Part shown: one piece after another, positions 35,085 to 51,821 of the stretch
How positions within the stretch are numbered: the first letter of the stretch is position 1
How the letters are laid out: each line of letters starts with the position of its first letter
Assembly: GCF_000382365.1 (NCBI RefSeq)
Contig: NZ_KB908232.1
Span: forward strand, 1 to 64,000
From: Pannonibacter phragmitetus DSM 14782
Lineage (GTDB): Bacteria > Pseudomonadota > Alphaproteobacteria > Rhizobiales > Stappiaceae
Reading direction: 5' to 3'
Length of the DNA: 64,000 nucleotides
Program-made: the position numbers and the translations under genes
The notes under the pieces: generated by a model
Seen by the model: only the letters and a program-made list of their open reading frames with translations
Told to the model about the DNA's origin: nothing
Databases searched by the model: none

Positions 35085-36890
35085 CTACTGCGCATTCTCC
35101 ATGATCAGATCGGTCATTTCAAAACGGATGACATCAACGAGCCCGAGATCGGAAATGCGAAGTTCGGGGATCACGACCAGCGCCAGCAGCGAGTGCTGCA
35201 TGTAGGCGTTGTTGAGGGTGCAGCCGCAGGCCGCCATGGCCTCCACCATCGCCGCCGCCTTCGCAGCAACATCCACGGCGGGGCTGTCGGACATGAGGCC
35301 GGCGATGGGCAGTTCCACCAGCGCCAGTTCCTTGCCGTCCTTCCAGACGGTGACGCCGCCGCCCACCTCGCCCAGCCGGTTGGCGGCCTTCGCCATCATC
35401 TGCCGGCTGGTGCCGACGACGATCATGTGATGGCTGTCATGGGCGACGGTCGAGGCAATCGCCATCTCTCCCGTGTAGCCGAAGCCGGAGACAAAGCCGT
35501 TGACCACCTTGCCCGTGGCGCGGTGGCGCTCCACCAGCGCGATCTGGCAGACCTCGTCTTCCGCTTCCACCAGTCCGCCGGAGACGGGAAGCTCCGCCGT
35601 CAGCGCCTTGGTGGGGGCCTGATTTTCGACGACACCGATAACGCGGGCCTTCACCGCATTGGCCCCGGCAGGCGCGGGAATGGCGAAATCCGCCGCTTCC
35701 AGCACCTTGCCAAGCCGCACGGTCTCCCGGGCGCTTTGCGGCCAGTCATAATGCGGGCACTCCGCCAGCAGCTTGCCCCCCTGCGCCACCAGAACGCCGC
35801 GGGCATAGACATCCTCGATGGGCAGATCCGTGAGGCTGGAGGTGAGGATCACATCCGCCCGGCGCCCCGGCGCGATGGAGCCCAGTTCCCGCTCAAGGCC
35901 GAAGTGGGAGGCCGTGTTGATCGTTGCCATCTGCAGCGCGATCACCGGATCGCAGCCGCAGGCGATGGCATGGCGCACCACCCGGTTCATGTGGCCATCG
36001 TTCACCAGGGTGCCGGAGTGGCAGTCATCGGTGCACAGGATGAAGTTGCGCGGGTCGAGCCCCTTCTGCGTCACCGCCGTGATCTGGCTTTCCACGTCAT
36101 ACCAGGCAGAGCCCAGCCTCATCATGGAGCGCATGCCCTGACGAACGCGGGCGATGGCATCGGATTCCGCCGTGCCCTCATGATCATCCGCCGCACCGCC
36201 CGCCACATAGGCATGGAAGGGAATGCCCCGGTCGGGGCTGGCATAATGGCCGCCCACCGTCTTTCCGGCGGCCATGGTCGCCGCCATTTCCGCCAGCATC
36301 TGCGGGTCGCCGTTGATGACACCGGGATAGTTCATCATCTCGCCAAGGCCGATGATGCCCGGCCAGCTCATGGCTTCAGCCACATCTTCGGCGGAAATCT
36401 CGAAGCCCGTCGTCTCCAGCCCCGGCGCAGACGGCGCGCAGGAGGGCATCTGCGTGAACATGTTGATGGGCTGAAGCAGCGATTCGTCATGCATCATCTT
36501 CACGCCCGCCAGCCCCAGCACATTGGCGATCTCGTGCGGATCATGGAAGATCGTGGTGGTGCCATGGGGAATGACGGCAGCGGCAAATTCCGCCGGTGTC
36601 AGCATGCCGCTTTCCACATGCATGTGGCCATCGAGCAGCCCCGGAATGAGAAAGCGCCCTTCCGCCTCCACCACCTTCGTGCCTTCACCAATGCAGTGCG
36701 AGGCATCAGGGCCCACATAGGCAAAGCGGCCTTCACTGACCGCCACCTGCCAGCCATCGAGAACTTCCCGGCTCTGCACGTTGACGAGCCGTCCGCCCCG
36801 GATGAGGAGATCCGCAGGCGTCCGCCCCGCCGCCACCGCCACGAGCCGGGGAGCCGTTTCGGCCCAGGATTTGAAGGTGGACTGGCTCAT
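35085..36890 (-). CDS. ade: Adenine deaminase
   Basis: A 601-residue metal-dependent amidohydrolase that converts adenine to hypoxanthine and ammonia. The N-terminal metal motif is GLLDGHMHVESGMLTPAEFA. The AdeC-type MMHDESLLQPINMF and the CTDDCHSGTLVNDGHMNRVV segment follow. The C-terminal domain includes the DSHHMIVVG region. Length matches the family. It may work with the ABC importer or in general purine salvage. It is convergent with the ABC operon and divergent from the alcohol dehydrogenase. Confidence 0.95.
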   Translation of the reverse strand: MSQSTFKSWAETAPRLVAVAAGRTPADLLIRGGRLVNVQSREVLDGWQVAVSEGRFAYVGPDASHCIGEGTKVVEAEGRFLIPGLLDGHMHVESGMLTPAEFAAAVIPHGTTTIFHDPHEIANVLGLAGVKMMHDESLLQPINMFTQMPSCAPSAPGLETTGFEISAEDVAEAMSWPGIIGLGEMMNYPGVINGDPQMLAEMAATMAAGKTVGGHYASPDRGIPFHAYVAGGAADDHEGTAESDAIARVRQGMRSMMRLGSAWYDVESQITAVTQKGLDPRNFILCTDDCHSGTLVNDGHMNRVVRHAIACGCDPVIALQMATINTASHFGLERELGSIAPGRRADVILTSSLTDLPIEDVYARGVLVAQGGKLLAECPHYDWPQSARETVRLGKVLEAADFAIPAPAGANAVKARVIGVVENQAPTKALTAELPVSGGLVEAEDEVCQIALVERHRATGKVVNGFVSGFGYTGEMAIASTVAHDSHHMIVVGTSRQMMAKAANRLGEVGGGVTVWKDGKELALVELPIAGLMSDSPAVDVAAKAAAMVEAMAACGCTLNNAYMQHSLLALVVIPELRISDLGLVDVIRFEMTDLIMENAQ

Positions 36891-39607: not shown

Positions 39608-40348
39608 ATGGCGCGTGAAACGTGGCAATCGATCCGGGACCGGCTGGCAGCTGACATTCTCTCAGGCGTTCTTGCACCGGAAACGCAACTGCCGACCGAG
39701 CCGGAACTCTGCGCCGAATTTGGAGCGGGCCGGCATTCCGTGCGCCGCGCCATCGCCGCGCTGGCCGTCGAGGGCAAGCTGCGGGTCGAGCAGGGACGCG
39801 GGACATTCGTTGAAAGCGCGCCTCTCATCAACTACCAGATCGGCCACCGCACCCGCTTCCGCCAGAACCTGATCAGCCAGGGCGTGACGCCTGCGGGCGA
39901 ACAGGTCTCCGATGATGTGATCCCCGCGCCGCGCCGGGTTGCCGAAGCGCTCGGCCTGCCGGAAGGAACGCCGGTTCACCGGCTGATGCGCCGCGGCCTT
40001 GCCGATGACGTGCCGGTAAATCTCAGCTTTGTCTACCATCCGCAGGCGCTGTTCCCGGACATGGCCGGGCAGCGCCGCGCGGGCCTGTCCGTCACCGATG
40101 TCTACCGCTCGCATGGCATCACCGACTACCTGCGCAAGAGCACCACCATCTACGCCCGCCGCCCGACGGCGGAAGAAGCCCGCCTGCTGAAACAGCACCA
40201 GGACCAGCCGGTTCTGGCCGTGACCAAGACCGATGTGGATCTGACCGGGCGGCCCATCGGCTATTCCCAGGCCATCTGGGCTGCCGGGCGCGTGCAATTC
40301 ACCTTCGATCTTCCCCCCGAAACCGGGAGCCCGGACCAGAATGACTGA
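39608..40348 (+). CDS. phnF: PhnF, GntR/UTRA-type regulator of the C-P lyase genes
   Basis: A 246-residue regulator with an N-terminal GntR winged helix (TEPELCAEFGAGRHSVRRAI). A C-terminal UTRA ligand domain follows (for example HRLMRRGLADDVPVNLSFVY, and the terminal STTIYARRPTAEEA region). ATG 39608 follows GGAGG (39598-39602); upstream TTG codons are less likely. It overlaps phnG by 8 bp. Probably an autoregulated repressor acting through the palindrome just upstream. Confidence 0.93.
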   Translation: MARETWQSIRDRLAADILSGVLAPETQLPTEPELCAEFGAGRHSVRRAIAALAVEGKLRVEQGRGTFVESAPLINYQIGHRTRFRQNLISQGVTPAGEQVSDDVIPAPRRVAEALGLPEGTPVHRLMRRGLADDVPVNLSFVYHPQALFPDMAGQRRAGLSVTDVYRSHGITDYLRKSTTIYARRPTAEEARLLKQHQDQPVLAVTKTDVDLTGRPIGYSQAIWAAGRVQFTFDLPPETGSPDQND

Positions 40349-40811
40349 CACTGCCCAGCCTGCCCTTGCACAGCAACCTGGCGCCGCCGCCCCCGATCAC
40401 GGCGCCATGCTGACAGCCCTTTCCCACGCCTGCGCGGACAGCGTGAAGCACTTCGCCGAAAGCCTGCTGCCGGTGCTGGGTGCCATTGACGTGCTGCGCA
40501 GCCGCACCGGCCTCGTCATGCTGCCCTTCCGCGACACGGTGAAGGGCACCGACTTTCACCTTGGTGAGGTTCTTGTGGCGGAAGCCGAGGTCCGCCTGAC
40601 CGGTCACGGCTCCACCGGCTATGGCATGGTCACGGGGCGCGATCTCGAATGGGCCATGGCCATGGCCCTGATTGACGCTGCAGCCGCCGCCGGGATTGAG
40701 CCCGCAGCCATCAGTGCCTTCGTTGCCGAAACCATCGAGGCCAATGCCGCCCGCGACCGGCAAAGCCTTTGCGCCATCGAGGCGACACGCGTCGACATGG
40801 AAACCTTCTGA
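40341..40811 (+). CDS. phnG: PhnG, C-P lyase complex subunit (divergent)
   Basis: A 156-residue subunit of the PhnGHIJ core complex, which with PhnI attaches phosphonate to the ribose of ATP in place of adenine. Recognisable landmarks are SRTGLVMLPFRDTVKGTDFH, LGEVLV and GYGMVTGRDLEWAMAMALID. These match the FNLGEMTVTRC and GRDK positions of ordinary PhnG only loosely. The divergence parallels that of PhnJ in the same operon. A Pro/Ala-rich N-terminal tail is present. Confidence 0.88.
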   Translation: MTDTAQPALAQQPGAAAPDHGAMLTALSHACADSVKHFAESLLPVLGAIDVLRSRTGLVMLPFRDTVKGTDFHLGEVLVAEAEVRLTGHGSTGYGMVTGRDLEWAMAMALIDAAAAAGIEPAAISAFVAETIEANAARDRQSLCAIEATRVDMETF

Positions 40812-40839: not shown

Positions 40840-41412
40840 ATGGGTGCCCTGCCCGCCAGTTCACATGCCCTCATCACAGCGCCTTTGCGGGGTGAGGATG
40901 AAATCCGCGACAATGCTGCCTTCGAGGCGATCCTCTGGGCGCTGAGCCGCCCCGGTGATGTGCGCCATCTGCCCGAACCCGGCCCGCGCACCATCCTTCT
41001 CGCGCTCATCGACCGGGAATGCCGGGTCCATGCCGATGACCCGGTGATTGCCGGGCTTGCAGCGCAGACGGGTGCAACGCTTGCCCCGCTGCATGAGGCC
41101 TGCCACGTGTTCCTGCAACTGGACCCTCGCGCAGATGCGGCCCGGCTTGCCGCCCTGAAGACCGGCTCCGCACTCTACCCGGACGAGGGCGCGACCATTG
41201 TCACCGAAGCCCGCCTGGGCGAAGGCCAGCGCCTGCGCCTGTCGGGCCCCGGCATCGAAACCACGCGCGAGATCGCTGTCGCCGGCCTGCCACAGGGCTT
41301 TTTTGCCCTGCGCAATGACCTGTGCCGCTACCCGCTCGGCTTTGACCTCTTCATCGCCGATGGCAGCAAGGTGATGGGCCTGCCGCGCTCAACCCGGATC
41401 GAGGTGCTCTGA
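40840..41412 (+). CDS. phnH: PhnH, C-P lyase complex subunit
   Basis: A 190-residue subunit of the C-P lyase core complex with a PLP-transferase-like fold but no cofactor. Landmarks are NAAFEAILWALSRPGDVRHL and the C-terminal CRYPLGFDLFIADGSKVMGL followed by RSTRIEV. AAGGAGG precedes the ATG at 40840. The stop overlaps the phnI start. Confidence 0.92.
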   Translation: MGALPASSHALITAPLRGEDEIRDNAAFEAILWALSRPGDVRHLPEPGPRTILLALIDRECRVHADDPVIAGLAAQTGATLAPLHEACHVFLQLDPRADAARLAALKTGSALYPDEGATIVTEARLGEGQRLRLSGPGIETTREIAVAGLPQGFFALRNDLCRYPLGFDLFIADGSKVMGLPRSTRIEVL

Positions 41413-42536
41413 TGGCTTATGTCGCAACCCGTGGCGGGGAAAGGGCTATTGACCAGTCCGAGAGGCTCTACAGGGCCGGAATGGGCACCATTGGCGCGGA
41501 CCGCGTGGCGGAGATCCGCCAGTCCCTGCCCTGGCTGATCGGCCGGGTCATGGGCGAGGCCTCGCTTTATGAGGAGGATCTGGCGGCGCTGGCGCTGGCC
41601 CAGTCCGGCGGCGACCTCTATGAGGCCGTGCTGCTGCTGCGGGCCTGGCGCACCACGCAGCCGCGCCTTGCCATTGCCGAAACGGTGACGCAGGATCAGC
41701 TCTTCACCCACCGCCGCATCTCTGCCGCCTTCAAGGATATTCCCGGCGGCCAGATTCTTGGGCCCTCGCTCGACTATTCCCACCGGCTGCTGGCCACCGG
41801 CGTGCTGGAAGGCCGCCCTCTTGTGCCGGAGCCGGTTGAGCCGGCGCCCCTGCCCGCTCCCGCCCGCCAGCCGTCTCTGGCCGCCTGGCAGAAGGCGCAG
41901 GGCCTCGTCGCCGATCCGGCGCGCGAAGAGGTGGCACCGGACGATATTCCCGACCTGACACGCGAGCCGCTGCTGTTCCCGGCCAAACGCGCCCACACGC
42001 TGCAAAGCCTTGCCCGGGCCGACACCGGCGGCGTTCTGGCACTGGGCTATTCCGCCATGCGCGGCTACGGCAACGCGCATCCGACGGTCAACGAACTGCG
42101 CCTTGCTGAAGCGGAGGTGACTGTCCGTCATCCGTGCGGCACCCTGTTCAGCGCCGGGCGGGTCAAGGTCTCTCAGGCCGAAGTCACCTCCAAGGGCAAG
42201 TCGGGCCAGCTCGACCTTGGCTTCTGCGCCACGCTGGGCTGGAACGAGATCAAGGTCATCGCCGGAGCGACCCTCGACCTCAACGCTCCGGAAGCGCCGC
42301 AGAATTCGCCGGTGAACGAGGAATTCTTCCTCTATCACACCGAGCCGGTGGAGGCCTCCGGCTTCTGCATCCACTTCAAGCTGCCCCACTATGTCACCTT
42401 CCAGTCGGCGCTGGATGCCCTGCGCGACGCCAAGTCGAAGGCCACCGGGGGGAATGCTGCCGGGGCGAAGACGGCACCCGATCCCGTATCTGGCGCCGCA
42501 CCGGAGCCGGCCATCACCGGGGAGATTTCCGCATGA
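41412..42536 (+). CDS. phnI: PhnI, nucleosidase/transferase subunit of C-P lyase
   Basis: A 374-residue subunit that, with PhnG, H and L, makes alpha-D-ribose 1-methylphosphonate 5-triphosphate from ATP. The family N-terminus (YVATRGGERAIDQSERL) and the C-terminal HFKLPHYVTFQ histidine pair, which forms a zinc site in the E. coli complex, are retained. A ~35-residue Ala/Pro-rich tail follows. Unlike PhnJ, this subunit keeps its recognised metal-site residues. It overlaps phnJ by ATGA. Confidence 0.95.
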   Translation: MAYVATRGGERAIDQSERLYRAGMGTIGADRVAEIRQSLPWLIGRVMGEASLYEEDLAALALAQSGGDLYEAVLLLRAWRTTQPRLAIAETVTQDQLFTHRRISAAFKDIPGGQILGPSLDYSHRLLATGVLEGRPLVPEPVEPAPLPAPARQPSLAAWQKAQGLVADPAREEVAPDDIPDLTREPLLFPAKRAHTLQSLARADTGGVLALGYSAMRGYGNAHPTVNELRLAEAEVTVRHPCGTLFSAGRVKVSQAEVTSKGKSGQLDLGFCATLGWNEIKVIAGATLDLNAPEAPQNSPVNEEFFLYHTEPVEASGFCIHFKLPHYVTFQSALDALRDAKSKATGGNAAGAKTAPDPVSGAAPEPAITGEISA

Positions 42537-43450
42537 CCAGCCTTGCCAGCCTGACCAAGCCCTGGAAGGCGTTCTCCTACGGCTTCCTGGATGCCTCCGC
42601 CAAGCGTGAACTGCGCCGCAAGATGCTGAAGGCCGTCGCCGTGCCCGGCTGCCAGATGCCCTATGCCAGCCGAGAGGTGCCCATTGCCCGCGGCTGGGGA
42701 ACCGGCGGCCTGCAGGTGACGCTGACGCTGCTGAAGCCCTCGTCCGTCGTCAAGGTCATCGACCAGGGCGCCGATGACAGCGTCAACGCCGCTTCGATCC
42801 GCAAGTTCCTCGCCCGCGTCTCGGGCGCTGGTGAGACCTGGGACACGGGCGAAGCCACCATCCTGCAGTCCCGCCACAGGGTGCCGGAGGAGATCCTGCG
42901 GGAGGACCAGATCCTTGTCCTGCAGGTGCCGAACCCGGAGCCCTTGCGCCCCGTCGAGCCGAACATGTCGGTGGCCCGGCAGATGCACGCTGATGCCGAC
43001 TATGGCCGCCTCTGGCTGACCCTTTACGAGCAGATGGTCCGCTCTGGCCGCATCATGCAGGGCGCGGCCTATCCCAGCCTTGTCAACGGCCGCCATGTGA
43101 TGACGCCCTCGCCGATCCCGCGCTGGGATGTGCCGAAACTTCACATGGCGCGGCATCTGACCTTCCTTTCCGCCGGCCGCGAGAAGCGCCTTTATGCCGT
43201 GCCACCCTATACGAAGGTGGAGCCGCTGGTCTTCTCGGATGTGCCCTACAAGGTCGAGGAGCACCAGCCGCTCACCTGCCACCGCTCCGGCGTGACAGGT
43301 TATTTCATGAACGAGATCCCGCAGGACGATGGCAGCTCCTCCTTCGAGGTGTCCGACAGCCATTTCGGCATCAAAGCCATCCGCCGCAGCGAAGGCGAAG
43401 CCATCCCGGACATCGGGACCTGGTACAAGAACGGGGAGTTCCGCACATGA
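42533..43450 (+). CDS. phnJ: PhnJ, C-P lyase catalytic subunit lacking most Fe-S cysteines
   Basis: A 305-residue protein, clearly PhnJ over most of its length (RGWGTGGLQVTLTLL, KVIDQGADDSVNAASIR, PSPIPRWDVPK, SAGREKRLYAVPPYTKVE). E. coli PhnJ binds its [4Fe-4S] cluster and forms a thiyl radical with Cys241, 244, 266 and 272. Aligned here are Cys249, Ser252, Val273 and Gly279, so three are lost. The glycyl-radical glycine is kept (Gly39 in VPGC), but the tyrosine after it is replaced by Cys40. The protein has only two cysteines. The tail past 285 is longer than in E. coli. Reading frame and neighbours are intact, so it does not look like a decaying gene. Confidence 0.93.
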   Translation: MTSLASLTKPWKAFSYGFLDASAKRELRRKMLKAVAVPGCQMPYASREVPIARGWGTGGLQVTLTLLKPSSVVKVIDQGADDSVNAASIRKFLARVSGAGETWDTGEATILQSRHRVPEEILREDQILVLQVPNPEPLRPVEPNMSVARQMHADADYGRLWLTLYEQMVRSGRIMQGAAYPSLVNGRHVMTPSPIPRWDVPKLHMARHLTFLSAGREKRLYAVPPYTKVEPLVFSDVPYKVEEHQPLTCHRSGVTGYFMNEIPQDDGSSSFEVSDSHFGIKAIRRSEGEAIPDIGTWYKNGEFRT

Positions 43451-44277
43451 CCGTCCAAAGCCCCGCTCAGCGCATCGAGGCCGCGCCCCGGCTGATGACC
43501 ATTCCCCCGCTCCTCACCATGCGCGGCATTTCCCGCCGCTTTGGCGGGGTCACCGCCCTCGACGGTGTTGATGCCACCGTCTATCCCGGCGAAGTTCTGG
43601 GCATCGTCGGCGAGAGCGGTTCGGGCAAGTCGACGCTGCTGCGCATGATGAACCTCGAGGACACGCCCGGCAGCGGCACCTATCATCTCAATCTGCCAGG
43701 GCCTGACGGAGCGGGTCTGACCGGCAACCTGTTCGACCTCGGCCGGTTCGAGCGCCGGATGCTCTGCGCCCGCAACATCGGCATCGTCTACCAGAACCCG
43801 CACCTCGGCCTGCTGATGCGCCACTCCTCGTCGGGCAATGTGGCCGAACGGCTACTGGTGGCCGGGGAGCGCAGCTTCAAGGTGCTGCGCGGCAAGGCAA
43901 GGGATGCACTCGACGCCTCGGAATTCCCGCTGGAGCGCATGGACGCCCGGCCCATCGAACTGTCCGGCGGCATGCAGCAGCGCGTCCAGCTGGCCAAGGC
44001 CATCGCGCTGGAACCCTCGCTGCTGCTGCTCGACGAGCCCACCACCGGCCTCGATGTCTCGGTGCAGGCGCTGGTGCTGGACACGCTGAAGCGTCTTCAG
44101 CGCGACCGCGCCATCACCATGGTCATCGTCTCGCATGATCTGGGCGTCATCCACACCATGGCAGACCGCGTCATGGTGATGCGCCGTGGCAAGGTGGTGG
44201 AACAGGGGCTCGTCGACCAGGTGTTCCAGGATCCGCAGCACGAGTACACCCAGCAGCTCGTGCAGGCCAAACTTTGA
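43447..44277 (+). CDS. phnK: PhnK, ABC-type ATPase of the C-P lyase complex
   Basis: A 276-residue ATPase that docks on the PhnGHIJ core near PhnJ. Walker A is GESGSGKST, the Q-loop is in IVYQNPHLGLLM, the signature is LSGGMQQR, Walker B is LLLLDEPT, and the switch histidine is in VSHDLGV. It resembles oligopeptide-transport ATPases but has no permease partner here. About 20 extra N-terminal residues precede the domain. It overlaps phnJ by ATGA. Confidence 0.95.
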   Translation: MTVQSPAQRIEAAPRLMTIPPLLTMRGISRRFGGVTALDGVDATVYPGEVLGIVGESGSGKSTLLRMMNLEDTPGSGTYHLNLPGPDGAGLTGNLFDLGRFERRMLCARNIGIVYQNPHLGLLMRHSSSGNVAERLLVAGERSFKVLRGKARDALDASEFPLERMDARPIELSGGMQQRVQLAKAIALEPSLLLLDEPTTGLDVSVQALVLDTLKRLQRDRAITMVIVSHDLGVIHTMADRVMVMRRGKVVEQGLVDQVFQDPQHEYTQQLVQAKL

Positions 44278-44296: not shown

Positions 44297-45046
44297 ATGC
44301 CCCCGCTTCTCGACGTGGAAGGTTTGTCAAAGCGCTTCCACATGTATCACCTCGACCAGGAACTGCACGCCTTCAGCGGCATTTCCTTCCGCCTCCATGC
44401 CGGCGAGTTCCTGTTGCTGCGGGGCGAAAACGGGGCTGGCAAATCCACCCTGTTGCGCACGCTCTACCGCAGCTACCTGCCGCAGGCCGGGCACATCTGG
44501 TACGCGGCCGGCGAAGGCCGCATCGACCTTGCAACAGCCGCCGATGTCGACATCACCCTGCTGCGGCGCCGTGACATCGGCTTCGTCACCCAGTTCCTGA
44601 CCGCGCGGCCGCGCGTTGCCGCCGTCGAGATCGTCGCCGAACCGCTGCGCCGGGCGGGCATGGCCAGAGCGGAGGCCCTTGACGAGGCACACCGCTGGCT
44701 TGAAGAATTCGGCGTGAAACGTGATCTGTGGCGTGCCTATCCCACCACGTTTTCCGGCGGCGAACAGCAGAAGGTCAACCTTGCCCGCGCTCTGATCCTG
44801 CCGCAGAAGCTTCTGCTTCTGGACGAGCCAACCGCCTCGCTCGATGCCGGTGCCCGCGCTGCACTGGTGCGGCGGCTGGCGGATCTGAAGGCCGGCGGAG
44901 TCGCCATGATCGGTGTTTTCCATCACCCGGGTGATGTGGCGGGCCTGATCGACCGGGAAATCCTTCTCACCACCCAGACTGAGCCGGAAACGGCGGTCCC
45001 CTACGCGCCTGCGGCAACCGGAGAACTTGATCATGTGGCTGTCTGA
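44297..45046 (+). CDS. phnL: PhnL, ABC-type ATPase of the C-P lyase pathway
   Basis: A 249-residue ATPase required with PhnG, H and I for coupling phosphonate to ATP-derived ribose. Walker A is RGENGAGKST, the signature is FSGGEQQK, and Walker B is LLLLDEPT. The switch position reads GVFHHPGDV, as in PhnL proteins. ATG 44297 lies 19 bp after the phnK stop. The end overlaps phnM by 14 bp. Confidence 0.95.
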   Translation: MPPLLDVEGLSKRFHMYHLDQELHAFSGISFRLHAGEFLLLRGENGAGKSTLLRTLYRSYLPQAGHIWYAAGEGRIDLATAADVDITLLRRRDIGFVTQFLTARPRVAAVEIVAEPLRRAGMARAEALDEAHRWLEEFGVKRDLWRAYPTTFSGGEQQKVNLARALILPQKLLLLDEPTASLDAGARAALVRRLADLKAGGVAMIGVFHHPGDVAGLIDREILLTTQTEPETAVPYAPAATGELDHVAV

Positions 45047-46205
45047 CTTTCGCATTGTCACCCCGAACGAGGTGATCGAACACGGCTCCCTGCGGATCGA
45101 GGATGGCTGCATCGCCGAACTGCGCGATACTCCGGTTGCGGGCGCAGAGCTTGAGGGGAACGGCCTTCTGCTGCTGCCCGGCTTTGTCGACATGCATGGC
45201 GACATGGTGGAACGCGAGGTCGAGCCGCGCCCGAATGTGCCGATGCCGCTGGAACTGGGGCTGCGCGATCTTGACCGGCGCCTCGCCGGATCAGGTTTCA
45301 CCACCGCCTATGCCGCCCTCTCCTTCAGTCCCATGTCCACCTACGGGCATCTGCGCAGCTATGAACACACCAGCGCCGTGATCCGCGAGCTGAAGGCAAT
45401 GCGGCACATGCTCAATGTCGATCACCGCGTCCACGCCCGGTTCGAGATCACCTTCCCCAAGGCACTCAGCGTCATCGAGGAATTGATCACGGAGGGAACC
45501 GTCGATCTCATTTCGCTCACCGACCACACGCCCGGCCAGGGCCAGTACCGCGACATCGAGCGGCACGTGCAGAAGATGGCCCGGGAAAGAGGCCTGAGCC
45601 GCGAAGAAGCGGCCGAGGCCATCGCCCGCCGCATCGAAGAGCGGACGCAGCCGGCCGGCGTTCTGGCCGAAACGCTCGAAGCCATTTCCAGCCTGTGCAT
45701 GGCGCATGGTGTCGCCCTTGCCAGCCATGACGACGACACAACGGACAAGGTGGAACTGATGCATGGCCTCGGCGTGGTCATCAGCGAATTCCCGGTGACG
45801 CTGGAGGCTGCCGCCGAAGCGCGCCGCTGCGGGCTGGCCACGGCCATGGGCGCTCCCAACGCCCTGCGCGGCCAGTCCTACTCCGGCAATCTCTCGGCCC
45901 GCGAGGCCCATGCCGCCGGTCTTCTCGACATGCTGGCCTCCGACTATCACCCCTCGGCCATGCTTCCGGCCCTGCTGGAACTCGCCGGAACAGACCGGGA
46001 TGGCCTTCCCGGCGCCGTGCGTCTGGCAACCCTCAACCCCGCAAAAGCCCTCGGTCTCGACGATCGCGGCTGCATCGAAACCGGCCGCCTCGCTGACCTT
46101 GTCATTGCAGATGATACGGGTATCGGCCATGTGCGGGCCACGCTGCGGCAGGGCCGGCTCATCTACTCCGGCGGCCATCTCGGGGCGCGCGCAAAGACGG
46201 CCTGA
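45033..46205 (+). CDS. phnM: PhnM, ribose 1-methylphosphonate 5-triphosphate diphosphatase
   Basis: A 390-residue amidohydrolase-fold enzyme that removes pyrophosphate from the PhnGHIL product to give the 5-phosphate, the substrate of PhnJ. Metal-binding and family motifs are FVDMHGDMVEREVEPRPN, SLTDHTPGQGQYRD, ASHDDDT and SDYHPSAMLPALLEL. The start ATG at 45033 lies within the end of phnL. It is the last gene of the first phn unit, followed by a hairpin and a repeat copy. Confidence 0.96.
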   Translation: MWLSDFRIVTPNEVIEHGSLRIEDGCIAELRDTPVAGAELEGNGLLLLPGFVDMHGDMVEREVEPRPNVPMPLELGLRDLDRRLAGSGFTTAYAALSFSPMSTYGHLRSYEHTSAVIRELKAMRHMLNVDHRVHARFEITFPKALSVIEELITEGTVDLISLTDHTPGQGQYRDIERHVQKMARERGLSREEAAEAIARRIEERTQPAGVLAETLEAISSLCMAHGVALASHDDDTTDKVELMHGLGVVISEFPVTLEAAAEARRCGLATAMGAPNALRGQSYSGNLSAREAHAAGLLDMLASDYHPSAMLPALLELAGTDRDGLPGAVRLATLNPAKALGLDDRGCIETGRLADLVIADDTGIGHVRATLRQGRLIYSGGHLGARAKTA

Positions 46206-46249: not shown

Positions 46250-46351
46250 ATACCAAGGCTTTCGATGCTGACGCATCACGCCTTGAAAATGCTCAAGCGC
46301 CGCACGGGCTTAACCAATGCTCGATGAGTCAAGCTTATCGAACATTGGTAT
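46250..46351 (+). repeat. Hairpin repeat, copy 2 (complete)
   Basis: Runs from ATACCAAGGC to the inverted TTGGTAT. Inside are the GATGC-TGAC-GCATC palindrome and a terminal stem-loop (ACCAATGCTCGAT paired with TTATCGAACATTGGT). About 90% identical by eye to copy 3 at 52927. Its right end reads TGATACCAA on the minus strand and supplies the TGA stop of the methyltransferase gene. Confidence 0.85.
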
Positions 46352-47160
46352 CAGCCCGTTCTTGCCGGACGGGCCCGGCGCTGCGTCCAGCGCACCAGCG
46401 TGTCAAAGTGCATGTCCATCCGCGTCTCGCCCGAAAGGCCATGGGACGCGCAGATTTCCTGAAAATCCGCCATCACCCGCGACAGGCCAAGACGGCGGAC
46501 AACAGTCCAGACCACTGCCCGCGTCAGATAGAAATCGATCAGCTCCCGCGCTGTAAAGGCGCGGGACCAGGGCCAGCGCCGGCTGTGCGCGGTCAGGAAA
46601 CCGTCCAGTCCCGACAGTTCCTCATGGCTCGGCTCCTTGCGCTGCTCCCGGGCCTCCAGCTCCGCGCTGTTGGGATAATGTTTCCAGACATAGGCGTCGA
46701 ACCCGTCAAAGATCTGCCCCGGCCTGCGCCGGTTGCGCACAACCGCCAGAATGCCGCCCGGCGACAGGATCCGCGCAGCTTCGGCGTAGAATTTCGGCCG
46801 GTCGAACCAGTGCACGGCCGAACAGGCCACCACCAGCGAGGCAAAATCCGGCGGCAGGCTCAGCTGCTCGGCCGGGGCGCCGATGATCTGCACCTGCGGC
46901 GTATTGCGGAACCGGCGCATGAGCACGTGGCGCATGTCCTCTCCCGGCTCAGCCGCAATGACGCTCCAGCCATCACCAAGACCGGTGAGCAGATCGCCCG
47001 TCGAATTGCCCGGCCCCGCCCCCACATCGACGGCCACCTTCAGCCCGGAGCGGGCCGGACAGATCCGCGCCAGATGCGCAAACACCGCGGGTGGATACCC
47101 GGGACGGCCGGCCTCATAGAACTCGGCCAGTCCCTCGAACTGATGCGCTGTCTCGATCAT
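46351..47160 (-). CDS. Class I SAM-dependent methyltransferase linked to the phn locus
   Basis: A protein of ~269 residues. The SAM-binding motif I is VAVDVGAGPGNST, a later acidic motif is AAEPGEDM, and CSAVHWF and ILSPGGILAVV follow as in small-molecule methyltransferases. The start is taken as the ATG at 47160 (after AGGAAAAGG); an ATG at 47196 is also in frame. It is transcribed opposite to phnC, with a PhnF-like palindrome 59 bp upstream, which ties it to phosphonate metabolism. Substrate unknown. Its stop codon lies in repeat copy 2. Confidence 0.85.
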   Translation of the reverse strand: MIETAHQFEGLAEFYEAGRPGYPPAVFAHLARICPARSGLKVAVDVGAGPGNSTGDLLTGLGDGWSVIAAEPGEDMRHVLMRRFRNTPQVQIIGAPAEQLSLPPDFASLVVACSAVHWFDRPKFYAEAARILSPGGILAVVRNRRRPGQIFDGFDAYVWKHYPNSAELEAREQRKEPSHEELSGLDGFLTAHSRRWPWSRAFTARELIDFYLTRAVVWTVVRRLGLSRVMADFQEICASHGLSGETRMDMHFDTLVRWTQRRARPARTG

Positions 47161-47218
47161 TGCCTTTTCCTGACGCACCGGCCCGGCAAATGGCATGGAG
47201 CCGGCGGACAGTGTGAAA

Positions 47219-47501: not shown

Positions 47502-48308
47502 ATGGAACAGAACATCCTTTCCCTCTCCGGCCTCGGCCGCTCCTTCGGCGCCACGCGCGCCGTCGACAACGTCACGCTCTCCATTGCCCCGGGCCAGTTC
47601 GTCGGGGTGATCGGACGCTCGGGCGCAGGCAAATCCACGCTGCTGCGCCTGATCAACCGGCTGATCGACCCGAGTGAAGGGACGATCCATTTCGGCGGTC
47701 TCAATGTCGGTGCGCTGAAGGGCAAGGCCCTGCGCGCCTGGCGCCGGGACTGCGCCATGATTTTCCAGCAGTTCAATCTGGTGGAACGGCTCGACGTTCT
47801 CACCAATGTGCTGGTCGGACGCCTCTCTGCCCACGGCTTCCTCAGTTCCATGGCGATGCAGTTCTCCGACGAGGAGCGCACGCTCGCCATCCACGCCCTT
47901 GACCGGCTTGACATGGCCCCGCAAGCGCTGCAACGGGCCGGAACGCTTTCCGGCGGCCAGCAGCAGCGTGTCGCCATCGCCCGCGCCCTCGTGCAGAACC
48001 CGCGCATCCTGCTTGCCGACGAGCCGATCGCAAGCCTTGATCCCGGCAATGCGACCCGCGTGATGGATGCCCTGCGCACCATCAACCGCGAGGATGGCAT
48101 CACCATCCTCGTCAACCTTCACACCCTCGACACCGCCCGCACCTACTGCGACCGGATCATCGCCATGCGCTCCGGCCGGGTGATGTTCGATGGCGCGCCG
48201 CGGCTGCTCACCTGCGAGGTGATGCGCAGCATCTACGGCAGCGAGGACCTCGAGGACTTCACCGAAACCGTGACATCGACGAGCCTCAGGGTCGCGATGC
48301 AGGCCTGA
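47502..48308 (+). CDS. phnC: PhnC, phosphonate ABC transporter ATPase
   Basis: A 268-residue ATPase. Walker A is GRSGAGKST, the Q-loop is in [12 protein letters not shown] (a PhnC hallmark), the signature is LSGGQQQR, and Walker B is ILLADEPI. The switch histidine is in VNLHTLDTA. It energises phosphonate import with PhnD and PhnE. First gene of the second phn transcription unit. Confidence 0.96.
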
Positions 48309-48327: not shown

Positions 48328-49236
48328 ATGCGTATCATTGCCGCCGCCACCGTGCTTGCCCTCGGCCTCGGTGCAACCACCGCCCACGCCCAGGACTGGA
48401 AGAACGACTACAAGGTCGTCAAGTTCGGCATTCTCTCGGGCGAGAACGAAAGCGACCGCGTCTCCCGCTACACCCCCTTCAAGGACTATCTGAAGCGGAC
48501 GGTAGGTGTGGATGTGGAGATCTTCACGGCCGGAAACTACGATGGCGTGATCCAGGCGCTCGCGGCCAACCAGATCGAATTCGCCTTCCTCGGCTCCTCC
48601 GCCTATGCGGCCGCCTACACGGAGTCCGAAGGCGGCATGATCCCGCTTCTGACACAGGTGCAGCAGGACGGTTCCACCGGCTACTTCTCGGTCATCGCCG
48701 TGCGCTGTGACAGCCCCTACAAGAAGATCGAGGACCTGAAGGGCAAGACGCTCGCCTTTGCCGATCCGGACAGCACCTCGGGCTACAACGTGCCCTACTA
48801 CAATCTCGACAAGCAAGGCTTCAAGCCGTCCGAATTCTTTGGCGCAACGCCCTTCTCCGGCAGCCATGAAGCGGGAGTTGCCGGTGTCGCCAACGGCCAG
48901 TTCGACGCGGCCGCCACCTATATCAACAACGAGATCAACGGCATTCCGCAGCGCATGGAAGCCAAGGGCATGATCCAGAAGGGCGAGATCTGCTGGATCT
49001 GGCAGTCACCGGAAATCACCTCCGGTCCTTTTGCGGCCCGCGCCAATCTGCCGGAAGGCCTGATCACCGCAATGAAGGACGCGGTCAAGAACGTCCCCAC
49101 GGCCGATCCGGTGGCCTTCAAGGAAATGTCCGGCGCCGAAAAATCCACGGCCAAGGGCTATGTCGAGGTCGACCATGACCGCTACCAGTGGATCATCGAC
49201 ATGCGCGACTGGTTCAAGAAGCAGCGCCGGAGCTGA
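48328..49236 (+). CDS. phnD: PhnD, phosphonate-binding periplasmic protein
   Basis: A 302-residue receptor with a Sec signal peptide ending near TTAHAQDW. Family landmarks are VKFGILSGENESDR, GNYDGVIQALAANQIEFAFL and DLKGKTLAFADPDSTSGYNV. The latter carries the serine/threonine residues that hold the phosphonate group. It follows phnC by 19 bp. It is separated from phnE1 by a repeat copy. Confidence 0.96.
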   Translation: MRIIAAATVLALGLGATTAHAQDWKNDYKVVKFGILSGENESDRVSRYTPFKDYLKRTVGVDVEIFTAGNYDGVIQALAANQIEFAFLGSSAYAAAYTESEGGMIPLLTQVQQDGSTGYFSVIAVRCDSPYKKIEDLKGKTLAFADPDSTSGYNVPYYNLDKQGFKPSEFFGATPFSGSHEAGVAGVANGQFDAAATYINNEINGIPQRMEAKGMIQKGEICWIWQSPEITSGPFAARANLPEGLITAMKDAVKNVPTADPVAFKEMSGAEKSTAKGYVEVDHDRYQWIIDMRDWFKKQRRS

Positions 49237-49253: not shown

Positions 49254-49353
49254 CAAGACCAACTCCCGATGAGCCTTGTTCATCGGGAGTTGGTCAAGCT
49301 CATGCCGCACTTGAGCAATTTCAGGGCGTGATGCGTCAGCATCGCAAGACCTG
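49254..49353 (-). repeat. Hairpin repeat, copy 4 (inverted, inside the phnD-phnE gap)
   Basis: Read on the minus strand it contains CGATGCTGACGCATCACGCC followed by CTGAAATTGCTCAAG. It ends in a strong stem-loop (ACCAACTCCCGATGA pairing with TCATCGGGAGTTGGT). The outer ATACCAA end is decayed. It lies wholly between phnD and phnE1, so it is transcribed within the operon and may form a strong RNA structure there. Confidence 0.8.
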
Positions 49354-49402
49354 GGGCGGTGACGCTGGGCATTGGCAGAAAATACGCAGCAACGGACAGC
49401 TC

Positions 49403-50314
49403 ATGACCCTTGTATCCCCGACAGTAACGGCCTTCGAGCGGGACTATGCCGCGCAACGCAGCCGCGCCCGGCTGACTTTCCTTGTCGTCTCGGCCCTCCT
49501 TCTGGTGCTGTTTCTGGTCACGGCCGGATTTTCCGACTTCTTCAAGGTCAGCCAGATCACACTCGCCGACGGCAGCCGCGCCGAGCGCTGGGTGCTGCTG
49601 GCCGGCCTGCCCCGGCTTGGCGAATATCTGTACAAGACCATCCCCGTCCTATCGCCCGCCAGCCTCGGCGAAGATCTGGCCGAATGGTTCTGGCGCTGGA
49701 AGGTCTGGCTCTGGCTGCTGCTGGAAACAATCCTGATAGCCTTCATGGCGACTGTTCTGGGCCTTGCCGGCGGTTTCCTGCTGTCCTTCTTCGCTGCCCG
49801 CAACCTGACACCGGGCCCTGTCACGCTGTGGGTTTCGCGGCGGGTGCTGGAAATTGCCCGGACTGTGCCGGATCTGGTCTTTGCACTGATCTTCGTTTTC
49901 TGCTTCGGCGCCGGGCCCCTGGCCGGTATGCTCGCCATCGCCTTCCACACCGCCGGTTCGCTCGGAAAGCTCTATTCCGAAGTGAACGAAAACATCGACA
50001 TGCGCCCGCTGGAAGGTGTGAAGGCGGCAGGCGGCAGCTGGTTCGACCAGATCCGCTATGGCGCGGTGCCACAGGTCATGCCGAATATCATCAGCTACAC
50101 GCTGCTGCGCTTCGAGATCAACGTCCGCTCCTCCTCGATCATCGGCTATGTGGGCGCCGGCGGTCTTGGACAGGAGTTCCGCACCGCCTTGTCCTATCAG
50201 GAATACACCGACCTTTCGGCCCTGTTCCTGATCATCCTGGTCACCGTCACCGTGATCGACTGGCTGTCGGAAAAGCTCCGCCATCACATCATCGGCCTGG
50301 AAAGGAACGCGTGA
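49403..50314 (+). CDS. phnE: PhnE, phosphonate ABC transporter permease (first copy)
   Basis: A 303-residue permease with a cytosolic N-terminus, helix 1 at LTFLVVSALLLVLFLVTAGF and several further helices. The EAA loop includes GVKAAGGSWFDQIRYGAVPQ followed by VMPN. The frame is open to 49328, but that segment is repeat copy 4, so the ATG at 49403 is chosen although its ribosome site is weak. The stop overlaps the start of the second permease (TGATG). Confidence 0.94.
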   Translation: MTLVSPTVTAFERDYAAQRSRARLTFLVVSALLLVLFLVTAGFSDFFKVSQITLADGSRAERWVLLAGLPRLGEYLYKTIPVLSPASLGEDLAEWFWRWKVWLWLLLETILIAFMATVLGLAGGFLLSFFAARNLTPGPVTLWVSRRVLEIARTVPDLVFALIFVFCFGAGPLAGMLAIAFHTAGSLGKLYSEVNENIDMRPLEGVKAAGGSWFDQIRYGAVPQVMPNIISYTLLRFEINVRSSSIIGYVGAGGLGQEFRTALSYQEYTDLSALFLIILVTVTVIDWLSEKLRHHIIGLERNA

Positions 50315-51213
50315 TGCAGCGCGACACCGCATATCGTCACGGCCCGGCTGCCGCCCCTGCCATCACCGCAGCCGAAATCGCCCGTGCCAGAGCCCGCCTG
50401 CCACATGCCTTCCGGCGCCCTCCGCTGCAGCGGTTCGCCCGGCCGTGCTTCTGGCTTGCTTTCACGGCCCTTTTTGCCTGGTGCCTCCATGATTTCGATG
50501 CGTCGCCCGAACGGCTCTGGAACGGACTGCAACGCCTTGGCCGGGTGCTGTCCTTCATGTTCCCGCCCCATATCTGGACGTCCTGGCGGGAAATGTCGGA
50601 GATCCTGACCGGCCTTGCCCAAACCCTGTCGATGGCCTTCCTCGGAACCGTGCTGGGCGCCTTCATCGCCTTTCCCCTTTCCTTCCTTGGCGCCCAGAAC
50701 ATCAACCGCATTCCGTTCCTGCGCTTCGGCGTGCGGCGCGGCTTTGATATCATCCGCGCCTTCGAGACGCTGATCCTGGCGTTGATCTTCATCCGCGCCT
50801 TCGGCCTTGGCCCTCTGGCCGGTGTGCTGGCGATTGCCGTCAGCGAGATAGGTGTGCTGGCCAAACTTTACGCCGAAGCCATCGAAAACACCTCGAAGAA
50901 GCCAGTCGAAGGCGTCATCGCCTCGGGCGGCGCACCGCTGCAATCCGTCCGCTTTGGCATTCTGCCACAGGTCCTGCCCGTGCTTCTGTCGATCACGCTC
51001 TACAATTTTGAATCCAATGTCCGCTCCGGCACGATCCTCGGCATCGTCGGCGCGGGCGGCATCGGCTTCCTGCTTTCCGACCGCATCGGCGCCTACCGCT
51101 GGGACGAGGCTTGGTCGATCATCTTCCTGATCATCGCCATGGTCTATGTCATCGACGCGCTATCGGCAGTCATCCGCACCCGTTTCATCGGCACATACAA
51201 CGGTACAAGATAA
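50314..51213 (+). CDS. phnE: PhnE, phosphonate ABC transporter permease (second copy)
   Basis: A 299-residue permease with a long basic N-terminal tail (~50 residues). Its EAA loop contains [20 protein letters not shown] followed by VLPV, and it keeps the [20 protein letters not shown] segment. Paired phnE genes are known from other alphaproteobacteria, and the two subunits probably form a heterodimeric channel. It is coupled to both neighbours by overlaps. Confidence 0.95.
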
Positions 51214-51821
51214 TGAAAACACTCTCCGAAGCCCCCAGCATCCATGAAACCGCAACGGTGGTTGATTGCCAGATCGGCAAGTGGACCGAAATCATGGCGC
51301 ATGTTTCCATGCGGGAATCGAGCCTTGGTGATTACTCCTACATCGTCAAGGGCGGCAACATTGTCTGGTCAACCATCGGCAAGTTCTGTTCGATTGCCGA
51401 AGGCGCACGCATCAATCCGGGCAACCATGCCACCTGGCGCGCCAGCCAGCACCACTTCACCTACCGCGCTGCCCAATACGGCCTCGGCGAGGACGATGCC
51501 GAGTTCTTCCTGTGGCGCAAGGATCATTGGGTCACCATCGGCCACGATGTCTGGATCGGTCATGGGGTCACGGTTCTGGCCGGGGTCACCGTGGGCACCG
51601 GTGCGGTCGTTGGCGCAGGCGCCGTGGTCTCCAAGGATGTGCCGCCCTACACCATTGCCGGCGGCGTTCCGGCCCGTCCGATCAAGCGGCGTTTCTCCGA
51701 AGCTCAGGCCGAAGCCCTGCAGGCCATTGCCTGGTGGGACTGGAGCCATGACGCCCTGCGCGAAGCCCTCCCGGATATCCGCATGCTGTCCATTGATGAG
51801 TTCATCGAAAAATACCGCTGA
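51213..51821 (+). CDS. Left-handed beta-helix (hexapeptide) acyltransferase of the phn operon
   Basis: A 202-residue protein. Hexapeptide turns run from residue ~15 to ~170 (for example [20 protein letters not shown] and [20 protein letters not shown]). A His in the catalytic position of xenobiotic/DapH-type acetyltransferases is visible (NPGNHATWR). Proteins of this kind recur in C-P lyase operons and are annotated as phosphonate metabolism proteins. The likely role is acetylation of an amino-phosphonate, as PhnO does with a different fold. The start overlaps the phnE2 stop. Confidence 0.85.

Follow-up and report, generated by a model that had tools for sequence, protein, structure and literature searches.

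Can a carbon-phosphorus (C-P) lyase complex be built around a PhnJ that lacks most of the cysteines of its radical chemistry, and if so, what does that complex do? The question is raised by a phn operon in a stretch of 64,000 nucleotides (nt) from Pannonibacter phragmitetus DSM 14782 (contig NZ_KB908232.1, positions 1 to 64,000; "the window" denotes this whole analysed stretch). An earlier note on the same DNA, made from the sequence alone, had pointed out the replaced residues of its PhnJ and ascribed them to a divergent lineage that uses another radical route, another mode of cluster binding, or a different reaction. The analysis reported here places the protein in a group of PhnJ variants that have all lost the same cysteines, retain the substrate site, are under purifying selection, and in some genomes are the only PhnJ found.

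Concerted loss of radical cysteines in a PhnJ variant

The window's phnJ product matches the Pfam family PhnJ (PF06007) at 385.9 bits against a curated cut-off of 25 and is thus a family member. It was aligned by phmmer to the Escherichia coli PhnJ chains 4xb6_D and 7z15_D with an offset of 7 to 8, up to residue 278. Multiple alignments agree in placing Cys249, Ser252, Val273, and Gly279 at the E. coli cluster cysteines Cys241, Cys244, and Cys266 and the thiyl cysteine Cys272, and Gly39-Cys40 at Gly32-Tyr33, as the earlier note had proposed (residue roles are those given in the accessible parts of PMC9947105 and PMC7916636). The note's spacings of 3 and 6 in the tail also held, the loop separating the two pairs being one residue shorter than in E. 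coli, and translation confirmed Cys40 and Cys249 as the only two cysteines of the protein. Judged as a radical S-adenosylmethionine (SAM) enzyme, the window's PhnJ keeps only the first of three cluster cysteines and has no thiyl cysteine.

The variant set comprised 101 rows from Alphaproteobacteria and Thermus plasmids (94 distinct sequences, some genomes having been entered twice), and the canonical set 58 four-cysteine rows, including locus L078 and Methylibium and excluding Haloarcula and the long-branch copy L160. All four cysteines are present in 58/58 canonical rows. Among the variants, Cys249 is kept in 101/101, and the counterparts of Cys244, Cys266, and Cys272 are cysteine in none: position 252 is Ser (98 rows) or Thr (3), position 279 is Gly (96), Ala (3), or Met (2), and position 273 is Val, Leu, Ile, Ala, Met, or Thr in a 96-row variant alignment plus two Thermus rows. 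As the same cysteines are lost in every row, the pattern in the window is not due to chance. Four residues, Arg251, Asn260, Pro263, and Glu272, are each fixed in 101/101 variant rows, position 260 being Asp in 58/58 canonical rows. Because these new invariant residues adjoin the lost cysteines, the variant tail is not the product of mere drift; it evolves somewhat faster than the rest of PhnJ in some pairs.

The substrate site and the radical glycine are retained throughout. Arg114, His115, and Gln131 (E. coli Arg107, His108, and Gln124), the loop Gly54-Trp55-Gly56-Thr57 (GWGT), and the glycyl-radical residue Gly39 are present in 101/101 variant rows. The residue after this glycine varies (Cys in 94 rows, Tyr in 6, Ser in 1). 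Thus, of the features that the earlier note proposed to look for across a whole clade, the cysteine loss is general and the extra Cys40 is not constant; Cys40 was rejected as a new radical relay since it is missing in 7/101 rows. In six of the 101 rows, the entire PhnJ contains a single cysteine, and therefore a cluster held by three PhnJ cysteines is excluded.

Canonical PhnI has a conserved Thr/Ser-Glu-Cys motif whose cysteine (E. coli Cys253 by alignment) is present in 15/15 rows; variant PhnI has Ala (94) or Thr (1) at this position (n = 95), followed by a shorter loop. The four-cysteine Haloarcula has Ser there, so this cysteine is not strictly tied to the cluster. The zinc histidines of PhnI, His223, His321, and His326 (E. 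coli 219, 328, and 333), are kept in 95/95 variant rows, which bears out the histidine pair noted earlier (His321/His326), and the conserved histidines of PhnM are likewise retained, as are the nucleotide motifs of PhnK and PhnL, which were compared with a canonical set without L160, L078, Methylibium, and Haloarcula. PhnI Cys319 was considered as a replacement ligand, being present in 95/95 alphaproteobacterial variants versus 0/15 canonical rows. It does not track the cysteine loss: the Thermus variants lack it, and Methylibium and L078, both with four cysteines, have it.

Descent, selection, and distribution

Trees were computed from chosen rows, one of 60 rows by a quick method and one of 58 rows from which the cysteine tail and column 40 had been removed; the latter excludes the long-branch L160 and a duplicate canonical row of L072. 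In the 60-row tree, the variants fall on one side of a branch with a Shimodaira-Hasegawa-like approximate likelihood ratio test (SH-aLRT) support of 97. With the tail and position 40 removed, the variants including Thermus are supported at 84 bootstrap/86 SH-aLRT and the proteobacterial variants alone at 100/99, and a single change is required in 83% of 200 bootstrap trees. One loss would be the simplest history of the group. Closest to the variants are three rows with four cysteines, PhnJ of Methylibium, L078, and Haloarcula, which join the variants at 100/100; the branching order among them has a support of only 63/34, and Haloarcula forms a long branch.

Pairwise ratios of nonsynonymous to synonymous substitution rates (dN/dS) of variant phnJ range from 0.024 to 0.167 in ten pairs, with 0.024 to 0.028 in three pairs of Devosia that carry the variant alone. 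The phnJ value of 0.027 is the lowest of the seven variant-operon genes measured (phnK and phnL not among them), compared with 0.241 for phnH. Variant phnJ is a divergent lineage under purifying selection and not a relic; here the earlier note's proposal stands, on the tree grouping, the dN/dS values, the invariant residues, the intact operon, and the genomes without another PhnJ.

A second, canonical phnJ elsewhere in the genome, which the earlier note had listed as speaking against its reading, is present in the 4.78-Mb genome of the window's own strain (G000:C2:204094-204906, 480 bits, all four cysteines). The variant is thus not the sole C-P lyase there. The genome may carry out the canonical chemistry elsewhere, and nothing shows that the variant complex performs the canonical reaction in it.

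Within the window's family (87 genomes), the variant was found in 4/5 genomes of the genus, including its own, and by identity in 0/82 others. An order-wide sample contained it in 15/397 genomes at 72 to 100% identity, with all other matches listed at ≤57%, and a phylum sample in 5/398 genomes, every one of the same class as the window. When 84,980 named species genomes were scanned for two variant-typical peptide patterns, 545 relatives were obtained, an upper figure because one pattern can also fit members of the four-cysteine sister group; the best 80 of the 545 were kept, among which Rhodobacteraceae are frequent. Hosts of the variant include Pannonibacter, Devosia, Paracoccus, Marivita, Tritonibacter, Thalassovita, Rhizobium, Phyllobacterium, Aureimonas, and Paenochrobactrum.

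Canonical and variant copies in 34 named genomes and 75 Devosia genomes were called by profile score, not by reading each cysteine. On this basis, 28/34 named variant genomes carry a second PhnJ of canonical score. Ten distinct genomes, among them Paenochrobactrum gallinarii and Devosia sediminis, have variant PhnJ and no other PhnJ found (two by score alone); their stated completeness is 99% in six and 91 to 94% in three, with one lacking a figure. The 75 Devosia genomes divide into canonical only (30), both (14), canonical plus a partial match (1), variant only (7), fragments only (2), and none (21). In one Devosia genome (G893, C1:3300715-3301529), the sole PhnJ match lies in two adjacent pieces, perhaps a broken canonical copy. 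Another genome (G171; L042 and L160 to L163) has five PhnJ genes, including L160, a four-cysteine copy on a very long branch. Variant PhnJ proteins that are identical or almost so occur in three distant genera, in Haematobacter massiliensis plasmid pOT1-5 (L179), Paracoccus shanxieyensis (L083), and Aureimonas altamirensis (L103), which looks like recent plasmid transfer. The Haematobacter locus has integrases upstream and an IS66 element that separates phnM from phnC, and its plasmid also carries a PhnJ of canonical score.

Candidate reactions of the variant complex

Our tentative working proposal, read from sequence comparison, is that the variant is a paralogous, cluster-free sister of C-P lyase with a nonradical cleavage, probably acting on another class of substrate. 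PhnI, with PhnG, PhnH, and PhnL, would couple an organophosphorus compound to the ribose of adenosine triphosphate (ATP), and PhnM would take off pyrophosphate. A polar P-X cleavage would follow in the zinc pocket of PhnI/PhnJ, with the ribose 2′-hydroxyl attacking phosphorus, and the product, 5-phosphoribosyl 1,2-cyclic phosphate, would be passed to a DUF1045 phosphodiesterase and PhnN. Such a cleavage would need a leaving group better than an alkyl carbanion, so the substrate would probably not be methylphosphonate but a phosphate ester, a phosphoramidate, or an activated phosphonate. A new task, for example as an acid or nucleophile, would have passed to the remodelled tail (Cys249, Arg251, Asn260, and Glu272). 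The variant keeps the residues for ribosyl transfer, the diphosphatase, the ATPases, the zinc histidines, and the cyclic-phosphate pocket; in C-P lyase, 5-phosphoribosyl 1,2-cyclic phosphate has been modelled in this pocket by cryo-electron microscopy (cryo-EM), contacting Arg107, His108, Gln124, and the GWGT loop (accessible parts of PMC9947105).

The genes that would handle such a product are present where the variant is alone. DUF1045 and PhnN occur in 8/8 variant-only genomes tested and score above the cut-off in 17/17 genomes each, with PhnP in 0/17. A 2H-type phosphoesterase performing the PhnP step has been proposed (accessible parts of PMC3840354), and DUF1045 would presumably be that enzyme. 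The variant-only Devosia loci L181, L182, and L183 contain a further small cluster with PhnM-like, PhnN-like, and DUF1045 genes, away from the main operon.

Devosia loci with a canonical cluster (L170 and L172) have the order M2-N-F-(GH)I-J-K-L-hexapeptide transferase-C-D-E1-E2, with G, H, and L outside the queries. Four variant-only loci (L067, L068, L112, and L124) lack canonical phnGHIJKL and retain, in the same order, homologues of M2, N, the transferase, C, D, and E1. E2 was also seen at two of them, L067 and L068, and in L067 the N gene lies directly beside that of the transferase. As L067 and L112 come from one species, the four loci represent three: D. marina, D. indica, and D. sediminis. 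The retained M2-N-transferase-C-D-E block points away from the variant F-G-H-I-J-K-L-M-C-D-E-E operon, and its accessory genes show dN/dS values of 0.025 to 0.061 between L067 and L068. N and the transferase gene are also kept in D. subaequoris (L069), and N, C, D, E1, and E2 in D. elaeis (L071 and L189), about 9 kb beyond the variant operon. The retention of PhnM2- and PhnN-type genes suggests that the variant complex now does the upstream work and yields a product usable by PhnM and PhnN.

Several observations weigh against this proposal. Gly39 is invariant, which would not be required of a radical-free enzyme. PhnC, PhnD, and both PhnE score as a phosphonate importer, favouring a phosphonate substrate, although a PhnD-type importer is not proof of one because transport of glycerol phosphates by a PhnT-type importer has been reported (accessible parts of PMC12718374). 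DUF1045 is found in 12/12 genomes with a canonical-type PhnJ match but also in 7/20 where no PhnJ was found, which makes its presence weak evidence. PhnN lies at 13/100 and DUF1045 at 4/100 variant loci, compared with 9/19 and 7/19 other loci (neighbour-gene counts at the 100 variant loci are lower bounds, some loci being short or from the same genome). The eight variant-only genomes tested amount to fewer independent cases, as five are Devosia and two share another genus. The cysteines may also have been lost separately in Thermus and the Alphaproteobacteria, the single origin holding in the 83% of bootstrap trees given above.

Some of these points fit the explanation that survives best beside it, in which the complex carries out the same C-P cleavage with a radical made otherwise, by a Cys249 thiyl, by Gly39 activated in trans, or by a cluster on Cys249 with noncysteine ligands or another subunit. 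The invariance of both Gly39 and Cys249, the phosphonate-type importer, and the canonical-type transporter, PhnM2, and PhnN genes retained by three Devosia species with the variant alone are all expected from it, and the E. coli cluster site lies about 30 Å from Gly32, with a role not settled in print (accessible parts of PMC9947105 and PMC7916636). Yet no cysteine is conserved in all variant PhnG, PhnH, PhnK, PhnL, or PhnM, only Cys249 is in PhnJ, PhnI Cys319 does not follow the loss, and among 19 loci examined no gene family besides the phn, transporter, and hexapeptide-transferase genes occurs at more than four. We regard another radical route as less likely than the nonradical reading; among the options left by the earlier note, a different reaction is favoured.

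Candidates for a constant helper gene were a methyltransferase (15/100 variant loci), the hexapeptide transferase (44/100, and also 10/19 other loci), and Opp-type binding protein and permeases (4 to 7/100; OppF matches were taken as other ATP-binding cassette [ABC] ATPases), none of which is constant. The PhnD pocket was uninformative as a substrate hint: the amine-binding pair of E. coli PhnD, Glu177/Asp205 (accessible parts of PMC12718374; matched to the PhnD chain by residue counting), is absent from the window's PhnD and from 83/83 variant-operon loci and also from 12/13 other loci, some of them from variant-only genomes. In the Mesorhizobium sp. AR07 plasmid locus L180 (769-8538), the variant operon has DUF1045 and phnN downstream of it and adjoins a gene of the alkaline phosphatase family and an ABC importer of the Opp type, a neighbourhood that possibly hints at a larger or an ester substrate.

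A purely structural PhnJ, in a complex that stops at the ribosylated compound (for activation, storage, or detoxification) or leaves completion to another enzyme, is improbable. Three of the four radical cysteines are gone in all rows while the site residues of PhnI, PhnK, PhnL, and PhnM are kept, and PhnN and DUF1045 are mostly not beside the variant operon, as it would predict; the low dN/dS of phnJ, the newly fixed tail residues, and the cyclic-phosphate-handling genes kept in all variant-only genomes tested argue otherwise. That the variant serves as an accessory to a canonical PhnJ supplied in trans by a second operon would suit the second copies in the named genomes and the window's own, but the ten genomes without a second PhnJ contradict it unless their assemblies miss a gene, and we consider it very unlikely. 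Ordinary decay of a redundant copy, which the four-cysteine copy in the same genome might suggest, is refuted by the dN/dS range, the operon left whole at most variant loci, and the invariant residues of the 101 rows.

The preferred reading, nonradical cleavage, would make the variant a cluster-free, possibly oxygen-tolerant complex that couples ribose activation to cleavage without a SAM/[4Fe-4S] radical and that may, again tentatively, have replaced the canonical complex in some lineages. In the boldest form, if the variant still cuts C-P bonds, the textbook cysteines would not be needed for the reaction. These results suggest that the second, well-preserved version of C-P lyase carried by many bacteria is a relative of that enzyme with a mechanism of its own. 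The C-P lyase mechanism is still called an unresolved conundrum, with the cluster site and the radical glycine about 30 Å apart (accessible parts of PMC9947105 and PMC7916636). A natural group without the cluster cysteines but with the substrate pocket sets these two parts of the machinery apart and opens the mechanism to testing. Surveys rely on phnJ to indicate C-P lyase or a potential for methane formation (accessible parts of PMC6852614, PMC9381506, and PMC8774927). Members of the variant subfamily are annotated as ordinary PhnJ, and Rhodobacteraceae are frequent among the best 80 named loci, so phnJ surveys may be counting a gene that yields no methane.

The operon and its known relatives

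The window contains the complete phnGHIJKLM set, although PhnG, PhnK, and PhnL score under their NCBIfam cut-offs (Table 1). The frames of phnF to phnM are all open, in line with the intact and coupled partner genes of the earlier note; phnJ starts 4 nt within phnI, and phnK starts 4 nt within phnJ. The order FGHIJKLM is complete at 85/96 variant loci. Among the 11 incomplete ones, five are on short contigs ending close to the missing genes, phnF is turned in three and was not found in two, and phnM was not found in two (in one of which phnF is also turned). A phnD homologue is present at 77/100 variant loci, with a median identity of 61%.

Table 1. Features of the phn locus in window coordinates
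Feature	Position	Strand	Remarks
Adenine deaminase gene	35085-36890	-	About 2.7 kb upstream of phnF
phnF, GntR-type regulator	39608..40348	+	TIGR02325, 198.5 bits, above cut-off
phnG	40341..40811	+	TIGR03293, 88.3 bits, slightly below cut-off of 89
phnH	40840..41412	+	TIGR03292, 112.5 bits, above cut-off
phnI	41412..42536	+	PF05861, 344.5 bits; His223, His321, and His326 kept; canonical Cys253 replaced by Ala256, nearby loop shortened
phnJ, variant	42533..43450	+	305 aa; Gly39, Arg114-His115, Gln131, and Cys249 present, other three cluster/thiyl cysteines absent
Codons Gly39-Cys40	42647..42652	+	E. coli Gly32-Tyr33
Codons Arg114-His115	42872..42877	+	E. coli Arg107-His108; also in 58/58 canonical rows; ligand contact by cryo-EM (PMC9947105)
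Codons Cys249-x-Arg251-Ser252	43277..43288	+	E. coli Cys241-x-x-Cys244
Codons Glu272-Val273	43346..43351	+	Val273 at E. coli Cys266
Codon Gly279	43367..43369	+	At E. coli thiyl Cys272
phnK, nontransport ABC ATPase	43447..44277	+	Top family TIGR02323, 209 bits, below cut-off of 303; nucleotide-binding motifs kept
phnL, nontransport ABC ATPase	44297..45046	+	Top family TIGR02324, 234 bits, below cut-off of 256; nucleotide-binding motifs kept
phnM, ribosylphosphonate triphosphate diphosphatase	45033..46205	+	NF011988, 557.7 bits, and TIGR02318, 427.9 bits, both above cut-offs
SAM-dependent methyltransferase gene	46351-47196	-	Between phnM and phnC, opposite strand
phnC, transporter ATPase	47502..48308	+	TIGR02315, 319.7 bits, above cut-off
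phnD, substrate-binding protein	48328..49236	+	TIGR03431, 292.5 bits, above cut-off
phnE1, permease	49331..50314	+	TIGR01097, 260.2 bits, above cut-off
phnE2, permease	50314..51213	+	TIGR01097, 280.9 bits, above cut-off
Hexapeptide-repeat transferase	51213..51821	+	PF00132, 46.9 bits

Two neighbouring genes lie on the opposite strand, the methyltransferase gene, whose homologue count is given above, and the adenine deaminase gene. A link of the latter to the operon would make sense because PhnI is reported to release adenine from ATP (accessible parts of PMC3840354); adenine deaminase was found at 0/100 variant loci. Variant PhnI begins Met-Ala-Tyr or Met-Gly-Tyr, and several canonical PhnI begin one residue shorter, so that the processed N terminus of the variant may differ from the canonical one. 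For E. coli, zinc binding by the N terminus of PhnI has been reported in the open state (accessible parts of PMC9947105).

No description of PhnJ without these cysteines was found among the papers listed in searches of the open-licence PubMed Central literature, a scope that leaves out most subscription papers and all supplements. Growth of an E. coli phn mutant on methylphosphonate is reported with a Rhodobacteraceae cluster (PMC3840354); this cluster and Sulfitobacter HI0054 (PMC5649143) may use either the variant or the canonical type of PhnJ. GpxB, a PhnT-family importer of glycerol-1-phosphate, illustrates that phosphonate-type importers can carry phosphate esters; it differs in being a transporter, and the accessible parts of PMC12718374 contain no link to a C-P lyase-like operon.

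The closest characterized system is the E. coli C-P lyase (PhnJ in PDB 4xb6 and 7z15-7z19), which shares with the variant PF06007, the partners PhnG, PhnH, PhnI, PhnK, PhnL, and PhnM, the radical glycine, Arg107, His108, Gln124, GWGT, and the first cluster cysteine. The variant differs in the replacement of Cys244, Cys266, and Cys272, in the change of PhnI Cys253 to Ala, and in the newly fixed Glu272, Arg251, Asn260, and Pro263. Its nearest relatives, PhnJ of Methylibium petroleiphilum plasmid RPME01, of genome G415 (L078), and of Haloarcula, keep the four cysteines; the stretch PSPIPRWD is common to Methylibium and Haloarcula, and the Methylibium operon carries phnN and phnP. The phn operon of Thermus thermophilus HB8 plasmid pVV8, a plasmid reportedly treated in a paper by Ohtani in 2012 that PMC5529391 cites, has the same loss pattern (CRRTG...YEVSD) and groups with the variants. 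The relatives on T. thermophilus plasmids have an identity of 59 to 63%, and the two that were read show the variant pattern; Tyr at position 40 and Ala at PhnI position 319 are further differences.

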